Virus record (IMG/VR): IMGVR_UViG_3300025570_000015
Coordinates: 1-61,867 of that record
Direction: 5' to 3' (one strand)
Length of the DNA: 61,867 nucleotides
From: a virus
Shown here one piece after another: positions 27,583-53,905 of this stretch. The notes beneath the pieces were generated by a model. The model saw nothing but the letters and a program-made list of their open reading frames with translations, did no database searches and had not been told where the DNA came from. The position numbers and the translations under genes are program-made. Within the stretch, counting starts at the first letter, position 1. Every line of letters starts with the position of its first letter.

Positions 27583-27698
27583 TGAACATCACAATGATCA
27601 AAGACGGATTGGCTATGGCATTATTTGCTGTAGCCGCCGTACACTTGCCAGAGATTATAGTTTTTCTGGATCAATTTATTAATGTTTGGGGGAGATAA
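27582..27698 (+). CDS. 38-aa single-span membrane peptide
   Basis: Sequence MNITMIKDGLAMALFAVAAV and onward to VWGR. One hydrophobic stretch (about 9-30) predicts a membrane helix. It is linked to both neighbours by TAATG stop-start overlaps, which supports it as real. An early small membrane protein could act in superinfection exclusion or membrane targeting; that is inference. Confidence 0.6.
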   Translation: MNITMIKDGLAMALFAVAAVHLPEIIVFLDQFINVWGR

Positions 27699-28375
27699 TG
27701 GCTACACTAAAAAAATTAAAATCTGACTATGAGTTTTGGAGTGGCGCTTATGCTGATGTTGCTTGTAGTGCTGATTTAAAAGGTATTGATAGGCTTAATG
27801 ATCAAGCTGAAGCCTCACGTTCGCTTGCTGTAGATGCATTTAATGCTTACTTGGATGAACTAAAAAACCAAGAAAAAGTCAAAAAAACCAGAGAAGCATT
27901 AGATCAAGTCATGGATACAATTGCGCCAACAGAAACACCTTTTTTTGCAAAACCAAAACTACTGACAAGTAATGACCAAAAAATGACAATATCTTTAATT
28001 GAAAAAATGGATGAATTGAAGTTAAAGATATTCTTATTCCATAATCTTAAAAATATTGACCCACATTTATATAAATTATTGTTTACAGAAATAGATAAAA
28101 ATAAATTTCCAGTCAGAGTTAAAAATTGTTTTTTCCATACATTTAAATTTGAAGTCTTTCATTATGATTTAATATTAAGAAACGATAAGTTTTTTAAATA
28201 TATACCAAATTTTGGCAAAAAATCATTAAAACTCGTAAAAGAATATTTAGATGAATACGGCTTGAAGTTAAATACAGATTTAAAAGATATTAAATATGAA
28301 GCGTTAAAATCTTTAAACCTTATTAATTTAAAGCATGATTATTTGTTTGTTGAAAAAAGAGGTTTTGTTCAATGA
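27698..28375 (+). CDS. Early protein with RNA polymerase alpha-CTD-like domain (225 aa)
   Basis: Start MATLKKLKSD at 27,698 behind GGGGGAG. Residues 1-90 are helical and unlike the alpha N-terminal domain. Residues about 135-193 match the bacterial alpha C-terminal domain: PVRVKNC (R140, N143, C144; E. coli R265, N268, C269) and IPNFGKKSL (G173, K175, S176; E. coli G296, K298, S299). E. coli E302 is replaced by L179. These are the UP-element contact residues. The domain-coding half is very AT-rich (9 G/C in the 60 bp 28,141-28,200) against 24/60 at 27,721-27,780, so it looks like a fusion of different origin. Likely a transcription modulator. Confidence 0.78.
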   Translation: MATLKKLKSDYEFWSGAYADVACSADLKGIDRLNDQAEASRSLAVDAFNAYLDELKNQEKVKKTREALDQVMDTIAPTETPFFAKPKLLTSNDQKMTISLIEKMDELKLKIFLFHNLKNIDPHLYKLLFTEIDKNKFPVRVKNCFFHTFKFEVFHYDLILRNDKFFKYIPNFGKKSLKLVKEYLDEYGLKLNTDLKDIKYEALKSLNLINLKHDYLFVEKRGFVQ

Positions 28376-29535: not shown

Positions 29536-29928
29536 TTAAACTTCAAAGCTGTTTATGACTTGCTTTAATAATTCGTTTTCATTGCCAAATGCTTCTGGGT
29601 GTAAACGAGTTGACGTTCTCTTAATTATCTTATCATCGCCACGCACCCAGTAAACTTTGTTTATCTCGTAAGCCACCAGAGCATATATGTCTGATTTTTT
29701 CTTACCTTCGACAGAACTCGTATGCCATCTATATTGATTACGATTTCCTGATTTTGTATTTGCTGTTTTGATTTGCAGGGTCAGCAGCTTGCCGCTTGGC
29801 GTTTTAATATATGCATCATCTATATCATGTTGAACTAGAGTGCATGAAATGCCAACGAAAGCTAACTTAGATAGAGCCAGAAATTCACCAGCTCTACCAA
29901 TGTTATTATTATGATGTGAGCCATTCAT
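29536..29928 (-). CDS. Small PD-(D/E)XK-type nuclease (130 aa)
   Basis: From MNGSHHNNNIGRAGEFLALS. The series GRAGEFLALSKLAFVG (Glu), DIDDAYIKTPSG (Asp) and LTLQIKTANT (Q-x-K) matches the core of small restriction-like/resolvase nucleases. The start is uncertain: none of the in-frame ATGs has a clear ribosome site, and 29,979 would overlap the endolysin more. Last gene of the lysis operon. A host-DNA degradation or branch-cleavage role is plausible. Confidence 0.6.
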   Translation of the reverse strand: MNGSHHNNNIGRAGEFLALSKLAFVGISCTLVQHDIDDAYIKTPSGKLLTLQIKTANTKSGNRNQYRWHTSSVEGKKKSDIYALVAYEINKVYWVRGDDKIIKRTSTRLHPEAFGNENELLKQVINSFEV

Positions 29929-30523
29929 AGATTTTGTTTGTTTCGCCTGTCCGGTCAACAATGCCATGTGTCCCGCCATTGACGCGGCGAGTTATCTTTA
30001 AGATTGTCTCGTCATTCACACCATCATCAGCAATGTCAAACAACTTGTTTTTCTGGAAGAACCATAGCGCAGTATCAAATGCATAATCTGTGGATACCAA
30101 GTCTGGATCTGTCATTATATCTGGCAAGCCCATGTCAGAGCTAAATGCCCTGTAGTTGTTCTTCCCGGTCAATTGCAAAAATCCGCGACCAATATAGACA
30201 GAACCTTCATCAGCTCCATTACCCATGCGCCCACCATAGACCTTGTTTGCTAATGCAGATGGGTTGCGCGAATAACCTTCGCAAGACGCTAAATCAGGGA
30301 AGCGGCTAGGCCATACACGCATCATGCTTTCAGCACTATAATTTAGGTTTTCCCTTGTATGACGCCAGTGACCGCTCTCGTGGCTTGCCTGACCCATCAA
30401 ATGCGCAGCTCTTTCATTAGATAGCTCGTAATGCTCTACGATGGCTTTTGCCGTGTTCTTTCCAAAATGTCCATCAGCACCAACGCCAACTTTCTCTTGG
30501 AGCTTTTTCATTGCTTCACTCAT
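29909..30523 (-). CDS. GH19/chitinase-class-I-type endolysin (204 aa)
   Basis: Start at MSEAMKKLQE (30,523), just after the stop of the 50-aa gene. Residues about 13-30 (VGADGHFGKNTAKAIVE) resemble a peptidoglycan-binding repeat. The lysozyme/chitinase core has the acid E49 (ASHESGHW), the second acid E58 (TRENLNYS) and YIGRGFLQLTGKNNY (about 112-126). It cleaves peptidoglycan at the end of infection. There is no signal peptide, so a holin is needed. Confidence 0.85.
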   Translation of the reverse strand: MSEAMKKLQEKVGVGADGHFGKNTAKAIVEHYELSNERAAHLMGQASHESGHWRHTRENLNYSAESMMRVWPSRFPDLASCEGYSRNPSALANKVYGGRMGNGADEGSVYIGRGFLQLTGKNNYRAFSSDMGLPDIMTDPDLVSTDYAFDTALWFFQKNKLFDIADDGVNDETILKITRRVNGGTHGIVDRTGETNKIYEWLTS

Positions 30524-30527
30524 AATA

Positions 30528-30680
30528 CTACTTCTTTTTCTTGGCAGTTTTAGCTGCTTGTTTAAATGCATTTGCAGTTGGCGCGCCTTTTGTACCGGGC
30601 TTGCGCATTTTCTCGCCGCTACCAGCTTTTATGCGCTTACGTTTCTTTGCAATATTTCCATATAATGAATTTTCTGGCAT
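30528..30680 (-). CDS. 50-aa lysine-rich basic protein
   Basis: Sequence MPENSLYGNIAKKRKRIKAG, then SGEKMRKPGTKGAPTANAF, ending AAKTAKKKK. AGGAG lies 7 nt upstream of ATG. It is below the size of most gene calls but has a strong ribosome site and a composition familiar from marine phage genomes. It probably binds nucleic acid or anionic surfaces. The stop is 4 nt before the endolysin start, whose ribosome site lies in its last codons. Confidence 0.7.
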   Translation of the reverse strand: MPENSLYGNIAKKRKRIKAGSGEKMRKPGTKGAPTANAFKQAAKTAKKKK

Positions 30681-30690
30681 TATCTATCTC

Positions 30691-31095
30691 CTATTTTTCA
30701 ATTTTCTTTAGCTTTTCTATTGATCTCATGCCGCCTAATCCGAGCATACCCATCATAACAGTCATCAAGCTACCCATATCAAACTCTGGTAGCTCTGGTA
30801 TATCAACGCCAGCAGCGCTTACACCAAACACGATCAATGGCTGCAATACAAAGTGATAAGCAAATGCCACACCACATACCCAACCGATAAATGGACGCCA
30901 TCCACCTTTGAATAACGAGCCAGACGCAGCTTCAGCTTTGTTTATTTCCAATTGACCCATTAATGCTTGCTGGGCGTGGTTATCAGACATCGTTGCTATT
31001 TCGTGAGCCAACTGTGCCTTCTGGTCTTTGTCTTCAATTACTTTGTCTAACAGGCCAGTTACCGGGCCAATTAAATTACCTACTAGATTCATCAT
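30691..31095 (-). CDS. Holin of the three-TM type (134 aa)
   Basis: An N-terminal amphipathic region (NLIGPVTGLLDKVIEDKDQK), then GWRPFIGWVCGVAFAYHFVL and MGSLMTVMMGMLGLGGMRSI membrane helices, and the charged end EKLKKIEK. WRPF-I-G-W is the mark of the Holin_3TMs family. It makes inner-membrane holes that release the endolysin encoded downstream. The start at MMNLVG overlaps the EF-hand gene by 20 nt. Confidence 0.8.
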   Translation of the reverse strand: MMNLVGNLIGPVTGLLDKVIEDKDQKAQLAHEIATMSDNHAQQALMGQLEINKAEAASGSLFKGGWRPFIGWVCGVAFAYHFVLQPLIVFGVSAAGVDIPELPEFDMGSLMTVMMGMLGLGGMRSIEKLKKIEK

Positions 31096-31408
31096 TTTGC
31101 TTACCTTTCGCTAATGCGTTTGCACCAAAGAATACTGACACTATGCCAGCAACAGACACAAAATATATACTCGCCATTGAACCTAATATTTTGGCGGCTT
31201 CTACTAACCCAAATACATCTGCTAGAATGACCGCAAAGGGGTATAGGAGCATCCCTGACAGGGCGTACCACGTCATTCTGCGTTGTGCATCACGCTGGGC
31301 GTCTTCGTCCTGCATTCGCAAGCGCCTGTCTTCCAGAGCCATGCGATCCCACTCAGATTGATCAATCGTGCCATTGCCATCTACATCAAATTTTTTAAAT
31401 TCATCCAT
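31076..31408 (-). CDS. EF-hand membrane protein (110 aa)
   Basis: A canonical EF-hand loop D8-V-D10-G-N12-G-T14-I-D16-Q-S-E19 at the N-terminus is followed by a charged helix and two membrane helices (about 47-66, ALSGMLLYPFAVILADVFG; and 78-98, SIYFVSVAGIVSVFFGANAL). It sits directly in front of the holin. A Ca2+-responsive membrane protein is implied, possibly an antiholin or envelope regulator; similar proteins occur in marine phages but the role is not established. Confidence 0.7.
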   Translation of the reverse strand: MDEFKKFDVDGNGTIDQSEWDRMALEDRRLRMQDEDAQRDAQRRMTWYALSGMLLYPFAVILADVFGLVEAAKILGSMASIYFVSVAGIVSVFFGANALAKGKQNDESSR

Positions 31409-31416
31409 ATTTTCAC

Positions 31417-31905
31417 CTAATCTGCTAACGGGTTATCAAGCGCTCTCTGCAACTTACCCATCAATTTATCTTCCAGCTCTTTCATTTCGCCACTTTGGGA
31501 AACCCTAACACGTTCACGCTGATTTTCAAAGCGTACCTCGGCAGCGTCTATCATGTCCCTGACTTTGTCTTCAGATTTGCGCACCATGTCCTCAATTCTG
31601 TCGGCCTGACGCTCAATACTCAAAATATCATCACGCAATCCAGTTTTGATCTCTCGCGTGTAATCCATAGTTTGCTGTATATTAGCATCCATTAAATCCA
31701 TCTGAGTTTGATATTCGTTTAAGTCTAGCCCAGCGACCTCTTCTATCTTTTGGTACATAACAAAGCCGCCATACAGGCCACCAACAATAGTAGACACAAA
31801 CGCAAATATAGCCATGATAGAACCAGCCGTAAGCTTCATGCCACCAGCTTTAATTTGGCGGTCTGCCAAGCCATCAATCCCATCTGCTATCTTTGTTGTA
31901 TCCAT
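31417..31905 (-). CDS. Membrane-anchored coiled-coil protein (162 aa)
   Basis: One membrane helix (about 27-50, TAGSIMAIFAFVSTIVGGLY) is followed by a long coiled coil (about 70-155; SIERQADRIEDMVRKSEDKV). N-in topology with a rigid periplasmic rod resembles an inner-membrane spanin subunit, but no partner lipoprotein (lipobox) was found nearby. Its stop overlaps the start of the signal-peptide protein upstream. Confidence 0.55.
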   Translation of the reverse strand: MDTTKIADGIDGLADRQIKAGGMKLTAGSIMAIFAFVSTIVGGLYGGFVMYQKIEEVAGLDLNEYQTQMDLMDANIQQTMDYTREIKTGLRDDILSIERQADRIEDMVRKSEDKVRDMIDAAEVRFENQRERVRVSQSGEMKELEDKLMGKLQRALDNPLAD

Positions 31906-32303
31906 TATTCTACAAAGTCCATTTCATTGCCCTTTGCTTGCAGGCTTTTAAGTTGCTCTAGCTCATCACGTAGCATTTGTATCTCAAGCCTACGCTGTGC
32001 CAGCTCTACTTGGTATAGGTCATCGCAGTTAATACGAGACTTGGGCTTGTCTAATGGTATGACTATGCGGGCATATACGCCAATATCTTTTGCCCTGTCG
32101 ATTGTGTCAAAATTAGATAAGACGCCAGTTACGCCATACTCAAGGTTTACTCCGCCACCGACTGCGTTACTGCAATCAAGATTGCCTGCGCGAAACCTGT
32201 CACTCTGGTAGTTCATTGGTGGATTTGGCAGTGATAAACTAAGGTTGCTACTCTCAGCTAATGCAGCGCCGCCGATTATGGATAAAACAAACGCTAATTT
32301 CAT
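31905..32303 (-). CDS. Secreted protein with signal peptide and C-terminal coiled coil (132 aa)
   Basis: Signal peptide MKLAFVLSIIGGAALAES with a clear A-L-A cleavage site. The mature part carries two cysteines (LDCSNAV, INCDDLY), VNLEYGVTGVLSN and ARIVIPLDKPK strands, and a final helix (LEIQMLRDELEQLKSLQAK). It is exported to the periplasm or outer membrane, perhaps as an envelope-disruption partner of the coiled-coil membrane protein next to it. Function inferred. Confidence 0.6.
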   Translation of the reverse strand: MKLAFVLSIIGGAALAESSNLSLSLPNPPMNYQSDRFRAGNLDCSNAVGGGVNLEYGVTGVLSNFDTIDRAKDIGVYARIVIPLDKPKSRINCDDLYQVELAQRRLEIQMLRDELEQLKSLQAKGNEMDFVE

Positions 32304-32686
32304 TTAGTTTCCTCCATAACTTTAGAGCATATCCTAGATGATATTAGTGGGCTTGAGCTGCGTGGCTTAACCACCTTTGATATTGTGCATAAGTATAATG
32401 GATTATCTAAGTCTGATTTTCGGATATACACCTCAAAATCTTTACGCTCTTTGTAATCAACTTTCATAATTCTATATGTAGTTGAAAATGGCATACTGTT
32501 AAAGTCCAAGTCAAACAGCTCTACCTGATAATATTTAACGTCTTCTCGCTGATTAAACAAAGACATTTGTACCTTCATTACGCCAGATACGTGTGATGGT
32601 TTTAGCTTTGGATAGGCTGGCGTCATCTCATGTGCATGAACTATAGACGCCAAGCCTATGAATAATATGGATAATTTATTTAGCAA
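32300..32686 (-). CDS. Secreted protein, pilus-chaperone-like layout (128 aa)
   Basis: Signal peptide MLNKLSILFIGLASIVHAHE, followed by a beta-rich domain with KYYQVELFDLDFNSMPFSTT and CTISKVVKPRSSS and two cysteines near the end (YLCTIS, RICSKV). The alternating strands resemble the N-terminal half of periplasmic immunoglobulin-like chaperones but it is only half the usual length. It lies next to a fimbrial-subunit-like protein, which makes the comparison interesting though unproven. Confidence 0.5.
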   Translation of the reverse strand: MLNKLSILFIGLASIVHAHEMTPAYPKLKPSHVSGVMKVQMSLFNQREDVKYYQVELFDLDFNSMPFSTTYRIMKVDYKERKDFEVYIRKSDLDNPLYLCTISKVVKPRSSSPLISSRICSKVMEETK

Positions 32687-33167
32687 TGCATTCTGCTTGC
32701 ACTACAGCCGTATATGTACCGCCAGTAAATGGCTTGGAAGCTGCGTAGGCTGCAGTGCTTGACGTGCTAAACCACGTCGATCCCGCAACGCTTAAATCAA
32801 ACACTGTAGTATTGTCATACACAACTTTTGCACTGTCATACCCAGACATGCCTGCGTCTGATGTTTTTGACACGCTTGTTGAGCCTGTCCAAGCTACGCT
32901 ATCTGTTAAGGCGGGTGATGAACTAAACGAGCTAGGGTGCGTGATGTTTGCCGTATAGTAATCAGCTATTGCTACATCAAATCTAACTACAGGTAAAACG
33001 CCGCCATCACTTGGAGATGTACTTAGTGTACTTGCAGTTGGGTTGCCATAAACCCCAGATTTGTCCGTTTGTATAACGCACTTTGCTTCCACGTTACCTA
33101 CTATGTCCACACTTCCGGCAAGAGCTGGTGAAGCTAGTGCGATAAGTGGTATTGCTAAATATTTCAT
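32676..33167 (-). CDS. Secreted fimbrial/SCPU-like protein (163 aa)
   Basis: Signal peptide MKYLAIPLIALASPALAGS, then a Ser/Thr-rich all-beta domain with one cysteine near each end (EAKCVIQT and VQAECIAK), which could pair as in major pilins and spore-coat-U-like proteins. The C-terminal strand GGTYTAVVQAECIAK resembles the last strand of such subunits. The start overlaps the next gene by 11 nt. A phage-encoded secreted beta-protein may coat or alter the host envelope. Confidence 0.55.
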   Translation of the reverse strand: MKYLAIPLIALASPALAGSVDIVGNVEAKCVIQTDKSGVYGNPTASTLSTSPSDGGVLPVVRFDVAIADYYTANITHPSSFSSSPALTDSVAWTGSTSVSKTSDAGMSGYDSAKVVYDNTTVFDLSVAGSTWFSTSSTAAYAASKPFTGGTYTAVVQAECIAK

Positions 33168-33174
33168 ATTAACC

Positions 33175-34047
33175 TCACTTGTTGTATTGCATGTCTACCA
33201 TTTGCTCATGCAGGATTTGTTGCGCTAAATTATTTCGTAAGCCTTTTTTGTTATCCGATATATTGCCACCATCTAATGATGCTACGTCATCATATATACC
33301 ACCATTTATTGCAGAATTATAGTACATAGCTATATTCGTTTGCTGGTTCATCTGATTTATAATATTTGATTGCCCTTGCGTTTTAAATAACGTCAATGCA
33401 TTCTCGGATGCTATCAAGCCAAGCTCAATGCGCGTTTCCTTCTCTTCATTATCATCCTCAGATATAATATTACCATCCTCATCGTATTCGTAGTCTTGCT
33501 CAGTGTCTATTGCGTCTAGCACGGCGTCATCTTCCAGAGCTGCGTATACTTCAATTTCTGGTAAATCTGGTACAGGCTTGATGTACCCGGGGCATGATGG
33601 GTTTAACTGCGGGTCAAAACATTCATCTATTCTAAAATTATATATTACCACGGCGTCTTCTACAGTGCCTTCACCCTCAACAGTGATTGAACCATCACCC
33701 CAGTTTTCGATAGGTATATTTGGTATGGGAAAAGTTTTAACGATTGTATTGCTAGGCATTCCAGACCAATCATCAACTTCTTTAAACGTGTAGCCATCGC
33801 CGGCAGAATTAAGATTACCAACGCTAACTTTCATGTCTGCGTCAGTCTCTTTTACAGTTCTATATTTATATGTGAGGCCATTTATATCTAACCCCGGCAC
33901 ATCTGGGAACATGGGCGTCATACTCCAGTTTAATGAGTAGTAAGCCGCATTGCCAGAGAAGCCGTATAAGTATGGCTCAGAGTGCGAGTAAGAGGGATAG
34001 AGTGCTAATAATAACGCCCAACCCAATCTTTGTTTCACTGTTATCAT
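33175..34047 (-). CDS. Large secreted protein with acidic linker (290 aa)
   Basis: Signal peptide MITVKQRLGWALLLALYPSY (cleavage near SHSEP). A beta-rich N-terminal domain (about 27-150) ends in the disulfide-type motif YNFRIDECFDPQLNPSCPGY, known to me from secreted proteins of marine phages and their hosts. Then comes a very acidic linker (about 175-205, DEDGNIISEDDNEEKE) and a C-terminal helical part. AAAAGGAT precedes the ATG, which lies 71 nt inside the upstream gene. Confidence 0.55.
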   Translation of the reverse strand: MITVKQRLGWALLLALYPSYSHSEPYLYGFSGNAAYYSLNWSMTPMFPDVPGLDINGLTYKYRTVKETDADMKVSVGNLNSAGDGYTFKEVDDWSGMPSNTIVKTFPIPNIPIENWGDGSITVEGEGTVEDAVVIYNFRIDECFDPQLNPSCPGYIKPVPDLPEIEVYAALEDDAVLDAIDTEQDYEYDEDGNIISEDDNEEKETRIELGLIASENALTLFKTQGQSNIINQMNQQTNIAMYYNSAINGGIYDDVASLDGGNISDNKKGLRNNLAQQILHEQMVDMQYNK

Positions 34048-34525
34048 TAAACATCCTTTTAACTACGTTTTGCTGATCTCTTTCAATTTCTTCTTTCACA
34101 GCTTCCATTTCCCACGCTAATCTAGCTTTATCTCCAACTAAACCATCTTTGGGGCAAGGCGTGCCAGCATTTAACATAGCGTCGAATACACGTTCATCTT
34201 GGCACATTACAGATACAGCAGCTACCTTCATTCCCATATCATACATGGTTTTAGCATTTTTGAGCTTTTCGCAATTCATATCACGCACTGTTCTGCCGGC
34301 AGATATACCAAGTATTTGCGTTTGCACTGCTCCAGCTACACCTACAGTACATAGGTCAGAGTTGCTTGTGTTTATGTTAGGAGATATTGCAGAAGGTGGC
34401 GGGCTAACTATTGTAGTTTCCATCGAGCCATTTGAAGTTACAGTGCTTTCTGATCGTATTACGTCATCATCTTCTGCGTATGCAGCGCCACCAATGAGTA
34501 ATACGATTAAAGCTATGCGTATCAT
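33977..34525 (-). CDS. Secreted/membrane protein with four cysteines and C-terminal TM (182 aa)
   Basis: Signal peptide MIRIALIVLLIGGAAYAEDD. The mature domain contains LCTVGVAGAVQTQILGISAG, a Cys-rich middle (MNCEKLKN, VMCQDERV, PCPKDG), a helix (LAWEMEAVKEEIERD) and the hydrophobic tail LGVIISTLSLLLAL. The last 71 nt also encode the signal peptide of the next gene in another frame. An envelope role in lysis is likely; the family recurs in marine phages but has no named function that I know. Confidence 0.6.
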   Translation of the reverse strand: MIRIALIVLLIGGAAYAEDDDVIRSESTVTSNGSMETTIVSPPPSAISPNINTSNSDLCTVGVAGAVQTQILGISAGRTVRDMNCEKLKNAKTMYDMGMKVAAVSVMCQDERVFDAMLNAGTPCPKDGLVGDKARLAWEMEAVKEEIERDQQNVVKRMFNDNSETKIGLGVIISTLSLLLAL

Positions 34526-34746
34526 TTTCGCTCCACTAACCTGTCTAGCTTTTCCTCAATGCGATCAAACTTACCCATTATTTGGCTAAGCACTTGCGAG
34601 CTATCTGCCTTAGTTACATACTCTTCCCTAGTACGATTTAATAAGATTTGCAATCTTTGCACTTCAAGCACGTAACCACGTAGGACAAAGCCTATAAAAC
34701 CAACGCCTAGCGTTAGTACGCTGCTCCATAGGTCTGTCATTTCCAT
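34522..34746 (-). CDS. Small TM plus coiled-coil protein (74 aa)
   Basis: A single membrane helix (about 9-27, SVLTLGVGFIGFVLRGYVLE) and a C-terminal coiled coil (QIMGKFDRIEEKLDRLVERK). This is the compact layout of many phage membrane accessory or holin-like proteins. ATGA overlap with the gene downstream and TAATG overlap with the gene upstream. Confidence 0.6.
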   Translation of the reverse strand: MEMTDLWSSVLTLGVGFIGFVLRGYVLEVQRLQILLNRTREEYVTKADSSQVLSQIMGKFDRIEEKLDRLVERK

Positions 34747-35370: not shown

Positions 35371-36327
35371 TTATGAAGTTGTGTTGTCAGCAATGATACC
35401 ATTTGCTTTTTCATTTTTAGCGCACAGTGTTAGCTCTGTGGTGACTTGTCTTGTGGAATTATCTCCAGTTTTTGCGAGTGCAACATTCTTTGTTGGACGT
35501 AAAACTGCAACTTCCCACATATTGTCCTGCATGATGAAAACATCGCGTGATCTGTTCTCCCGGCTGGGCATAAATTCAACAGATCCCCAAGGTGTTACAT
35601 ATACAGCAAGTGATTTGATTACTTTCTCATCACCAGCTTGTACTGCTGAACGCTGGTTGTTGTTACCAGTGAAGCCTAAAGCTAGGTTCATTTGGAATGC
35701 AGACAAGTAAACTGTGTCTGGCTTTCCGCCCTCTTCCCAAATTGACTGCATAACGCCATCAAATTTAGTTTGTGAAAATGCTGTTGGCGTACCATCATCA
35801 GTACGCGCATCAGAACCATCACCAGTTGGGTTTGCGCCAGAGTTTCCAGATTGGAAGTCTACGTTTGTAATCATCCATGCTGGAGCGCCTGCAAGTTCGC
35901 GTGCTGTTGATGAATTACCAGCAACTCTTGCGTTGTTTGCGAATAGAGCTTTTTCTATATCGAGCTTCTGCTCTTTCGCCACTTTTAAGGTGTGATAAGC
36001 TAACTCACGACCCCGGCCTGCTTTATTTAGACCTTCATCTGTGTCAGGAACTACAACTGCGTTTTTAAAGATTTGCGTGTAATTGCCTAAACGAGATGTT
36101 GCTGTACGTGCTTCAGCAGTAGTTGCATCGCCTTCAATGTGAGCGTTTGCGCCAGATGCACGTAGTGAATCTGTCTGCCACTCGGTAAAAGTGTTGCGTG
36201 CAGTAGTTTTCTTACACTTAGAATATAGTGGAGTTTCCTCCGGGCTTACGTTGTAAATCACGTCAGATAAATCTTCACGTATCCCCACAGCATCATAGCT
36301 GTCAAATGTGTTGGATGGTTGTGCCAT
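35371..36327 (-). CDS. Major capsid protein (SU10/BPP-1-like HK97 fold)
   Basis: 318 aa. MAQPSNTFDSYDAVGIREDL, then YNVSPEETPLYSKCKKTTA are typical of the SU10-like major head family. The body contains the KFDGVMQSIWEEGGKPDTVY and FMPSRENRSRDVFIMQDNMW segments of the HK97-fold A and P domains. No N-terminal delta region is present, which fits a separate scaffold (next gene). It is followed by a strong terminator, as expected for the most expressed gene. Confidence 0.85.
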   Translation of the reverse strand: MAQPSNTFDSYDAVGIREDLSDVIYNVSPEETPLYSKCKKTTARNTFTEWQTDSLRASGANAHIEGDATTAEARTATSRLGNYTQIFKNAVVVPDTDEGLNKAGRGRELAYHTLKVAKEQKLDIEKALFANNARVAGNSSTARELAGAPAWMITNVDFQSGNSGANPTGDGSDARTDDGTPTAFSQTKFDGVMQSIWEEGGKPDTVYLSAFQMNLALGFTGNNNQRSAVQAGDEKVIKSLAVYVTPWGSVEFMPSRENRSRDVFIMQDNMWEVAVLRPTKNVALAKTGDNSTRQVTTELTLCAKNEKANGIIADNTTS

Positions 36328-52303: not shown

Positions 52304-53905
52304 TTAATAAGATAGTAGCCCACGTTCTAACTCTTGTTGTTTTTTATATTCTTGCATAGCGGTCAATACACCCGGTGCTAATAATCCAGCAGCAGTTAAA
52401 TTTTTTAAATGTTTAAATTCTGGATCAAATCTTGCAAATTTTGACCTTAATGTTGTTGGGTCAAATGTAACTGCTGTTGTCGCCATCTCTGGGCTTAGTC
52501 CAATATGATCTGGGTGAGGAAACTGACTTCCAATATCAACGACATCTTTAATAAGTAATCCGCTACTATCTGTAGTTCTTGCCGCCCTAGCCGCCTCTGG
52601 AGATGATGCCCAAGATGCCCAATCTTGTGTCATATCTGATATTTTTTTACGAGTAGGTATTCCATCTTGTTTGAAATTCATTCTAGCGTACTTTGGGGCG
52701 TCACCCCAATTTGCACCTTCAAAATTTGTTTTTGCGTAATTATCTGTTTTACCTAACAATGGGTAAACTGCACCTCTATCATCGTATAGATTGAAAGCAT
52801 CTGTTGAAAAATCTCGACCAGCAGTAGGATTTTCAGTTGGGCTTCCAGCATACCTATTCGCATTATACCTATCTGTTGTACTCCAAATGCCAGTGTCGTA
52901 ATCTTGACCGCCAGCTATGTCAGCATCCATAGCTTTTATTCCACCTTGTCCGCCATGAAATAATTCTTTGTTATAGCCAAGCTGGTCAGCTCGTAACTTT
53001 CTAGCGCCCTCACTCATATTTAACGGCGTGTTATTAAACATATATTGTGGGTCTGCCATAGACATCATTTCGTCAGTAACATACTTTGCCTCACCCTTTG
53101 CGCGTAGCTCTAGAATTTCTTTTGCAGTTTTTTCTGCTTTATTTTTAGGCTTGGGTAGTGATGGGCTAGAAAGAGCATCAAGTATACCTTTAACCTCTGA
53201 ATTAAAATTTGGATCGTAATCAAGCAGTGGCGTCGATGTGTCAGCGCCATCTAAATCAATAAAACGCACTTTTGCATTTTGCACGCCCTCTTCCGCCACT
53301 TTAGTCAACCTATGATGTCCATCTTGAACAAACATTTTTCCGTTTTTTCTAACGACAAAGGGCAACTCACCAGCGCTAGAAGATGTAGTAGAGAAATCTG
53401 GGTTTACTGTAGGTTGCGTAGCATAAATCTGATTAATCGGCACTTCCTCAACACGAGAAGTAAGTGCTGATACACGTCGATTTTCTTCTTTATTTAATGT
53501 GGGTTTTTCTACATCTCTAAACGTCCAGCCTGTTTGTGTTGGGTCAGCTTTAGGATTTAACTTTATATTACCAAAAGACATGCCCAGCGCGTTTGGATCA
53601 ACTTCAATCCGTTTAGCTTTATCAAGTAATCCCCTTGCGCCCTTCTTAATGCCGGCAGCCATAGCGTCGCCAAGGCCGGGGACTAATCCAACGAGAGCTG
53701 CGCCGCCTAGAGCTGCCACCATTGCATAATTAGGGTCTGGCTTTTGTAATTCGTCGTAAACTTCTTTGGCTGCCATAGCGTCGCCAATGATAGGCGTGGC
53801 TTCAGCTACAAATCTTGCGGCGTCCATTGCTGTAATACCTTGGTATGGCGTCGCCGTTCTCTTTCCAGAGAAACTCATTGGCCTTTGTTGATCTAGTAAG
53901 CCCAT
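52304..53905 (-). CDS. Polyvalent-type virion protein: carrier N-terminus, ParB-like and ADP-ribosyltransferase-like domains, unit B
   Basis: 533 aa. The carrier region (about 25-115) is shared with unit A. The next part, VEEVPINQIYATQP to DGHHRL (195-200), has the ParB/Srx nuclease-like motif. Then LFHGG (315-319), GIWSTTDRYNANRYAG (339-354) and the end motif VTFDPTTLRSKFARFDPEF (479-497) match ART domains of phage and plasmid polyvalent proteins. It would be injected with DNA and modify a host target, or protect phage DNA. Catalytic residues cannot be fixed by eye. Confidence 0.68.
   Translation of the reverse strand: MGLLDQQRPMSFSGKRTATPYQGITAMDAARFVAEATPIIGDAMAAKEVYDELQKPDPNYAMVAALGGAALVGLVPGLGDAMAAGIKKGARGLLDKAKRIEVDPNALGMSFGNIKLNPKADPTQTGWTFRDVEKPTLNKEENRRVSALTSRVEEVPINQIYATQPTVNPDFSTTSSSAGELPFVVRKNGKMFVQDGHHRLTKVAEEGVQNAKVRFIDLDGADTSTPLLDYDPNFNSEVKGILDALSSPSLPKPKNKAEKTAKEILELRAKGEAKYVTDEMMSMADPQYMFNNTPLNMSEGARKLRADQLGYNKELFHGGQGGIKAMDADIAGGQDYDTGIWSTTDRYNANRYAGSPTENPTAGRDFSTDAFNLYDDRGAVYPLLGKTDNYAKTNFEGANWGDAPKYARMNFKQDGIPTRKKISDMTQDWASWASSPEAARAARTTDSSGLLIKDVVDIGSQFPHPDHIGLSPEMATTAVTFDPTTLRSKFARFDPEFKHLKNLTAAGLLAPGVLTAMQEYKKQQELERGLLSY

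Follow-up and report, generated by a model that had tools for sequence, protein, structure and literature searches.

Chaperone-usher pili (FimC/FimA, Caf1M/Caf1, CsuC/CsuAB) are encoded at loci in which the gene for an immunoglobulin (Ig)-like periplasmic chaperone adjoins genes for cysteine-bearing exported beta subunits. Curli (type VIII secretion; CsgC, CsgG) are usher-less and combine a small Ig-like periplasmic chaperone with a separate outer-membrane component. Two-component spanins (Rz/Rz1) have their place in the lysis cassette, and the question of how the outer membrane is opened by phages that lack recognisable spanins has been raised previously (PMC6139136). Here we describe a cassette of five genes for exported proteins, g1 to g5, in the 61,867-base IMG/VR virus record IMGVR_UViG_3300025570_000015, the whole of which is referred to as the window; the gene names g1–g5, p162 and p74 are our own. 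The five genes are co-oriented, tightly packed and mostly overlapping on the minus strand at 31905-34525, with the capsid gene on one side and the holin and endolysin genes on the other. We read the cassette, with a rough probability of 45%, as an usher-less chaperone, subunit and anchor system (the trio g3-g2-g1) accompanied by a second exported unit, through which phages would remodel the host envelope late in infection and in connection with lysis. The genes concerned are the following.

33977-34525, minus strand: g5, 182 amino acids (aa), with a signal peptide, a cysteine-rich domain and, in its own clade, a hydrophobic C-terminal tail
33175-34047, minus strand: g4, 290 aa, with a signal peptide; overlaps g5
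32676-33167, minus strand: g3, 163 aa, candidate for an exported pilin-like subunit
32300-32686, minus strand: g2, 128 aa, TTG start, exported single-domain chaperone-like protein
31905-32303, minus strand: g1, 132 aa, exported, probable outer-membrane/peptidoglycan anchor
31417-31905, minus strand: p162, sixth gene of the conserved block, with an N-terminal membrane segment, a long coiled coil and a C-terminal NPL

An earlier note on this DNA, made from the sequence, had claimed five consecutive exported genes at this place, and all five open reading frames (ORFs) were recovered there on the minus strand. At the start of each product, as read from the sequence, a charged n-region is followed by a hydrophobic stretch and a site of the A/S-x-A type. 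A simple signal-peptide scorer flagged g2 to g5; g1 was pushed out of its list by a spurious antisense ORF, and its signal peptide is evident by eye (MKLAFVLSIIGGAALA^E). Among the remaining minus-strand genes the scorer flagged only p162, a membrane anchor, and one internal start, and recognisable signal peptides on this strand are restricted to the five cassette genes.

The same note had proposed a search for the block in other marine phages, where it proved to be strongly conserved. The order g5-g4-g3-g2-g1-p162 was found in 100 of the 100 IMG/VR loci holding all six genes, with median intergenic gaps, from g5 to p162, of -71, 7, -11, -4 and -1 bases. Because the order is identical in every one of these loci, the grouping is more than chance. 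Marine viral contigs contain at least 592 relatives of g5, and in the 80 nearest loci the block persists also where similarity to the window has been lost in surrounding genes, the capsid gene among them. The same block stands beside different neighbours (lipase class 3, CHAP lipoprotein) in a second group of contigs that seem to derive from larger phages; the six-gene block is ancient. In one of these larger phages a class 3 lipase and then a CHAP-domain lipoprotein lie 3' of the block (L113:10198-10905, L113:13623-14300). A g3 relative is also present in a 328,292-base viral contig, and very large phages may therefore carry the module too. The five genes fall into two separable units, the trio g3-g2-g1 on the one hand and g5 with the NPL-ending membrane coiled-coil protein on the other. 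The earlier interpretation was partly supported; it missed this division and the occurrence of the trio in bacteria.

Without the rest of the block, the trio occurs in 179 Vibrio phages, whose genomes fall into four or more size classes that range from 57–60 kb up to the 111–128 kb of the T5-like Demerecviridae. Profile comparison by hhalign connected the window and Vibrio-phage versions of g3 over their full length (E 1.8e-9) and those of g1 (E 2e-12). For g2 the hhalign match is weak alone (E 1e-3, probability 21%), and the link therefore rests also on gene order, on an overlap with g3 that both versions have, and on Pro, Asn, Cys and Cys residues common to the two. In the records read (Ceto, pVp-1, 1.205.O, PS14A.1 and D71) the trio comes after long fibre-like genes; in Ceto and pVp-1 it stands immediately before holin and M15 endolysin genes, and in 1.205.O an M15 endolysin follows it. 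We considered the large fibre-like genes as ushers and rejected them, as the products look like fibre proteins, have no signal peptides and, in the one scanned, no Pfam match.

This arrangement bears on a surface-exclusion or receptor-masking role, in which a short fibre, displayed by the trio on debris and infected cells, would keep progeny and competing phages from adsorbing there. Receptor-blocking genes often lie near receptor-binding genes, the trio directly follows fibre-like genes in Vibrio phages, and the combination of chaperone-like and outer-membrane-anchor-like parts suggests surface display. However, the cassette of the window sits with capsid and lysis genes instead of tail-fibre genes, its late expression would fall after the main risk of superinfection, and it has no homology to known exclusion lipoproteins. 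We regard this role as quite unlikely. The earlier note had left envelope remodelling and surface exclusion side by side; remodelling is the best reading.

The trio, usually with extra pilin-like genes, is also found in chromosomes and plasmids of rhizobia and Vibrio. Searches with g1 turned up Vibrio and Mesorhizobium plasmids; of 398 Pseudomonadota genomes sampled, nine were positive, not counting the phage-bearing bin used as centre. Within sampled families, g1 was present in 17/150 genomes of one Vibrio-type family and in 5/199 of the rhizobial order. The rhizobial operon consists of a subunit, g2, g1 and a second subunit, flanked by unrelated housekeeping genes. In Vibrio-type operons, g2 and g1 are accompanied by between one and three genes that are pilin-like or have the size of a two-domain adhesin. 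Profile comparison relates rhizobial g3 clearly to that of Vibrio phages (E 3e-10), and rhizobial g2 matched that of podo- and myophages strongly in hhalign (E 1.9e-7). The trio is a bacterial operon as well, and acquisition from hosts is its most likely origin in phages. A search for the usher family PF00577, in which an E. coli control was positive, found no match in six of the nine trio genomes, among them all four from rhizobia, and a match above cut-off in only two of the nine; no usher was found among the large window proteins scanned. At one Vibrio-type locus (L134, reverse complement, 6.0–6.9 kb), all cysteines have been lost both from g1 and from the subunit next to it, as if the disulfides of the set were gained and lost together.

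The bacterial copies have no phage nearby, which argues against a virion role, in which g3 and the other exported proteins would be added to, or released with, the virion as decoration or adhesion proteins. Placement of the cassette among structural genes is in keeping with such a role, whereas Sec signals direct the proteins to the periplasm and virions assemble in the cytoplasm; we consider it very unlikely. A broader proposal is that g3-g2-g1 is a new minimal surface route in Proteobacteria, with g1 in place of the usher at the outer membrane and a half-size chaperone delivering beta subunits to it, and that unrelated phages repeatedly acquired it to build a structure on dying cells. We put this forward tentatively, as a somewhat unlikely scenario.

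The AlphaFold model of g2, built on alignment A14 (59 sequences, with P23, Y25, N45, C100 and C120 invariant), has a pLDDT of 84.9 and a pTM of 0.71. The best Foldseek matches in the PDB are the first domains of SfaE (E 5.8e-4), FimC, Caf1M, DraB and FaeE, and fimbrial chaperones make up 36 of the 50 PDB matches listed, with TM-scores of about 0.5. Structural alignment with VIA-align gave a Z-score of 9.5 to Caf1M, GH2 and MSP domains following close behind. The PapD-type chaperone fold is therefore present as its first domain only: g2 has no counterpart of the second domain of the two-domain chaperones of about 200 residues, and its mature form is about 110 residues in all relatives seen. Comparison with E. 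coli chaperone profiles was discarded, as mature g2 sequences performed no better than column-shuffled controls. The fold of g2 is confidently predicted to be that of a pilus-chaperone first domain, which is by itself no proof of a chaperone function. The half-length chaperone-like domain proposed earlier is thereby supported at the level of fold.

The subunit candidate g3 is an exported beta-rich protein in which C30 and C160, near the ends of the mature chain, are invariant in 38 sequences (alignment A15), Vibrio-phage and rhizobial relatives included. Its AlphaFold model reached a pLDDT of only 43 (25 close sequences). We rejected an hhalign match of g3 with fimbrial subunits of E. coli (E 8e-6), since without the signal peptides the E-value was 0.09, or 0.014 for the rhizobial set. 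No Pfam match to fimbrial or SCPU families exceeded the curated cut-off for g3, and one bacterial relative (L203) reached SCPU at E 0.079 only, below cut-off. Neither the model nor the mature-only profile match, which is not significant, establishes a donor-strand-completed incomplete Ig fold. As no usable model resulted and the signal peptide accounted for most of the profile match, we call g3 pilin-like by its layout and company only; a pilin-like subunit is plausible but unproven. Of the previous description of this 163-aa protein as a pilus subunit, the cysteines near both ends were confirmed and the pilin identity was not.

The third member, g1, has amphipathic strands, the conserved motif GVYxRIxIPL..RI(D/N)C..LYxxEL and a C-terminal helix. 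Three Vibrio-family genomes encode g1 fused at its end to a peptidoglycan-binding domain of the OmpA type; in the two of these that were scanned, the Pfam OmpA match has E-values of 3.5e-21 and 1.1e-20. Phage g1 lacks this OmpA C-terminal domain, ending before it and keeping the N-terminal domain and the helix. Because of the fusion we place g1 at the outer membrane or cell wall, where it is probably an outer-membrane/peptidoglycan anchor, and its conserved amphipathic strands would suit an oligomeric barrel.

In the second unit, g5 is characterised by the motif C..DxNCE..MCQDxRVF..AGTPCPxDG (alignment A4) and g4 by a conserved N-terminal part, a D-x-C..CPGY motif, an acidic linker and a helical C-terminus (alignment A5). 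Relatives of g5 occur in pelagiphages and roseophages (tblastn down to 5e-28), and g5 matches PHROG 20531, a family without assigned function; neither g5 nor g4 has a Pfam family or PDB match. These relatives and alignments bear out the earlier remark that two further genes carry cysteine motifs seen in marine phages. We rejected g4 as a homologue of the large exported "carbohydrate-binding" protein of pelagiphages, which occupies the same place beside g5, as hhalign did not support it. All 106 members of the p162 family end in NPL, compared with 1 of 3351 other ORFs. The architecture of p162 (alignment A6) is that of an inner-membrane protein with a periplasmic coiled coil, i-spanin-like in shape only and not by homology. 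Seven phages, namely the Pelagibacter phages HTVC202P, HTVC033P, Baldr and Mosig, a Votkovvirus and the Roseobacter phages CRP-207 and CRP-810, have g5 and a membrane coiled-coil NPL protein without the trio, near holin, lysozyme or terminase genes (pelagiphage and roseophage NPL loci L082, L083, L085, L086, L087, L192 and L193). The NPL proteins of these phages were rejected as homologues of p162, since there is no profile homology and shape and tail alone are shared; NPL is possibly a shared docking tail.

The surroundings of the cassette include the following genes.

35371-36327, minus strand: major capsid protein (Pfam SU10_MCP, 1.1e-80), the upstream landmark
34522-34746, minus strand: p74, directly upstream of g5, with a hydrophobic N-terminal segment and a coiled coil (PHROG 462/12220)
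31076-31408, minus strand: small EF-hand membrane protein (Pfam EF-hand_5, 5.8e-6) with hydrophobic segments, adjoining the holin gene
30691-31095, minus strand: holin of the GTA_holin_3TM type (Pfam 1.3e-24; PHROG holin 1.8e-34)
29909-30571, minus strand: GH19-type endolysin (Pfam Glyco_hydro_19, 4.5e-9)

Read along the direction of transcription, the genes encode the portal, a scaffold-like protein, the SU10-type capsid protein, p95, p100 and p74, then g5-g4-g3-g2-g1, and after these p162, the EF-hand protein, the GTA-type holin and the GH19 endolysin. The position of the cassette suggests that it consists of late genes. The EF-hand protein, which lies between p162 and the holin, may tune lysis by calcium; Roseobacter phage CRP-207 has a similar EF-hand membrane protein. 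Window positions 1-25684 and 37458-61867 represent two related phages in tandem, with about 75–89% nucleotide identity in matching stretches, and one alone has the cassette inside the window. An 80,374-base IMG/VR contig holds two cassette copies (L046, L076), and such records may be tandem prophages, mixed concatemers or assembly chimeras. Elsewhere in the window, 27686-28375 on the plus strand resembles the RNA polymerase alpha C-terminal domain (PF03118, E 5.7e-5, slightly below cut-off), a possible phage transcription factor, and 52304-53905 encodes a 533-aa protein with weak matches to ParB-like nuclease and ADP-ribosyltransferase (polyvalent protein) domains, perhaps an ejected protein.

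No lipobox-containing ORF was found on the minus strand of the window, embedded frames of at least 30 aa included, and no canonical outer-membrane spanin was found. This bears on a second explanation, in which rupture of the outer membrane at lysis would be the main task of the cassette, p162 acting as the inner-membrane spanin and g5, g4 and g1 replacing the outer-membrane lipoprotein. It agrees with the lack of a lipoprotein o-spanin or u-spanin in the window, with the cassette's location directly before holin and endolysin, and with the strictly conserved NPL end of p162 as a natural docking tail; g5 and the NPL protein also recur beside lysozyme and holin genes, and a Lipase_3 gene adjoins the block in another phage. 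Against it, the trio is present in bacteria without lysis genes, and the trio-bearing Vibrio phage pVp-1 is listed with a two-component spanin (PMC6139136), on account of which the trio is not just a spanin. We judge this explanation unlikely.

For the usher-less system with its second unit, we propose that g2, as a single PapD-like domain, would maintain exported g3, the beta subunit, in soluble form in the periplasm and pass it to g1, or to a g1-anchored assembly, at the outer membrane without an usher. Located in or at the outer membrane or peptidoglycan, g1 would anchor or release the subunits. The second unit (g5, g4 and p162) would span the periplasm beside the holin and endolysin, with p162 linking the inner membrane to g5 and g4 in the periplasm. 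Both units would be made late with the capsid and lysis proteins, and the outer envelope would be rebuilt or weakened around lysis. In this scheme the pairing of chaperone and subunit and the link to lysis are inferred. Several observations weigh against it. VIA-align ties the chaperones with GH2 and MSP domains, Ig-like folds are common, and sequence comparison of g2 with E. coli chaperones gave nothing significant; g3 has no proven fold. The bacterial trio stands away from lysis genes. Three bacterial loci lie near cyclic di-GMP (c-di-GMP) genes (EAL or GGDEF), which are often found near adhesion systems, and this neighbourhood hints at adhesion. The listing of pVp-1 with a spanin pair counts here as well, as the trio would not simply replace the spanins.

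A pilus-type chaperone and subunit set would be unexpected in lytic phages, and a half chaperone with an OmpA-linked partner and no usher would test the minimum needed for building extracellular protein fibres. Apart from the OmpA fusion, neither Pfam nor NCBIfam has a model that matches the trio or its relatives in bacteria; PDB sequence searches with profiles of g1 to g5 returned nothing credible, and literature searches found no description of this system. What is new is this usher-less, OmpA-linked chaperone and subunit set, shared by phages and bacteria, and, in marine phages, the constant linkage of this set to a second exported unit. The block is abundant and recurs in cultured Vibrio phages, so its role is directly testable, and the cassette may help to answer how spanin-less phages open the outer membrane.

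Compared with chaperone-usher pili, the trio shares the adjoining chaperone and subunit genes, the fold of chaperone domain 1 in g2 and, in some bacterial operons, a two-domain adhesin-sized subunit. It differs in its one-domain chaperone, in the lack of an usher and of Pfam or NCBIfam matches, and in its outer-membrane partner, which appears to be g1 and is not known from chaperone-usher systems. With curli it has in common the usher-less plan, a small Ig-like chaperone and a separate outer-membrane component; however, g3 lacks curlin repeats and g1 has no similarity to CsgG, neither family having a Pfam match in window genes or bacterial homologues. The OmpA family (PF00691) contributes a domain to g1 of some Vibrio-family genomes and not to phage g1. 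With two-component spanins the cassette shares the i-spanin shape of p162 and a place in the lysis cassette, whereas p162 has no outer-membrane lipoprotein partner and is accompanied by five exported proteins.

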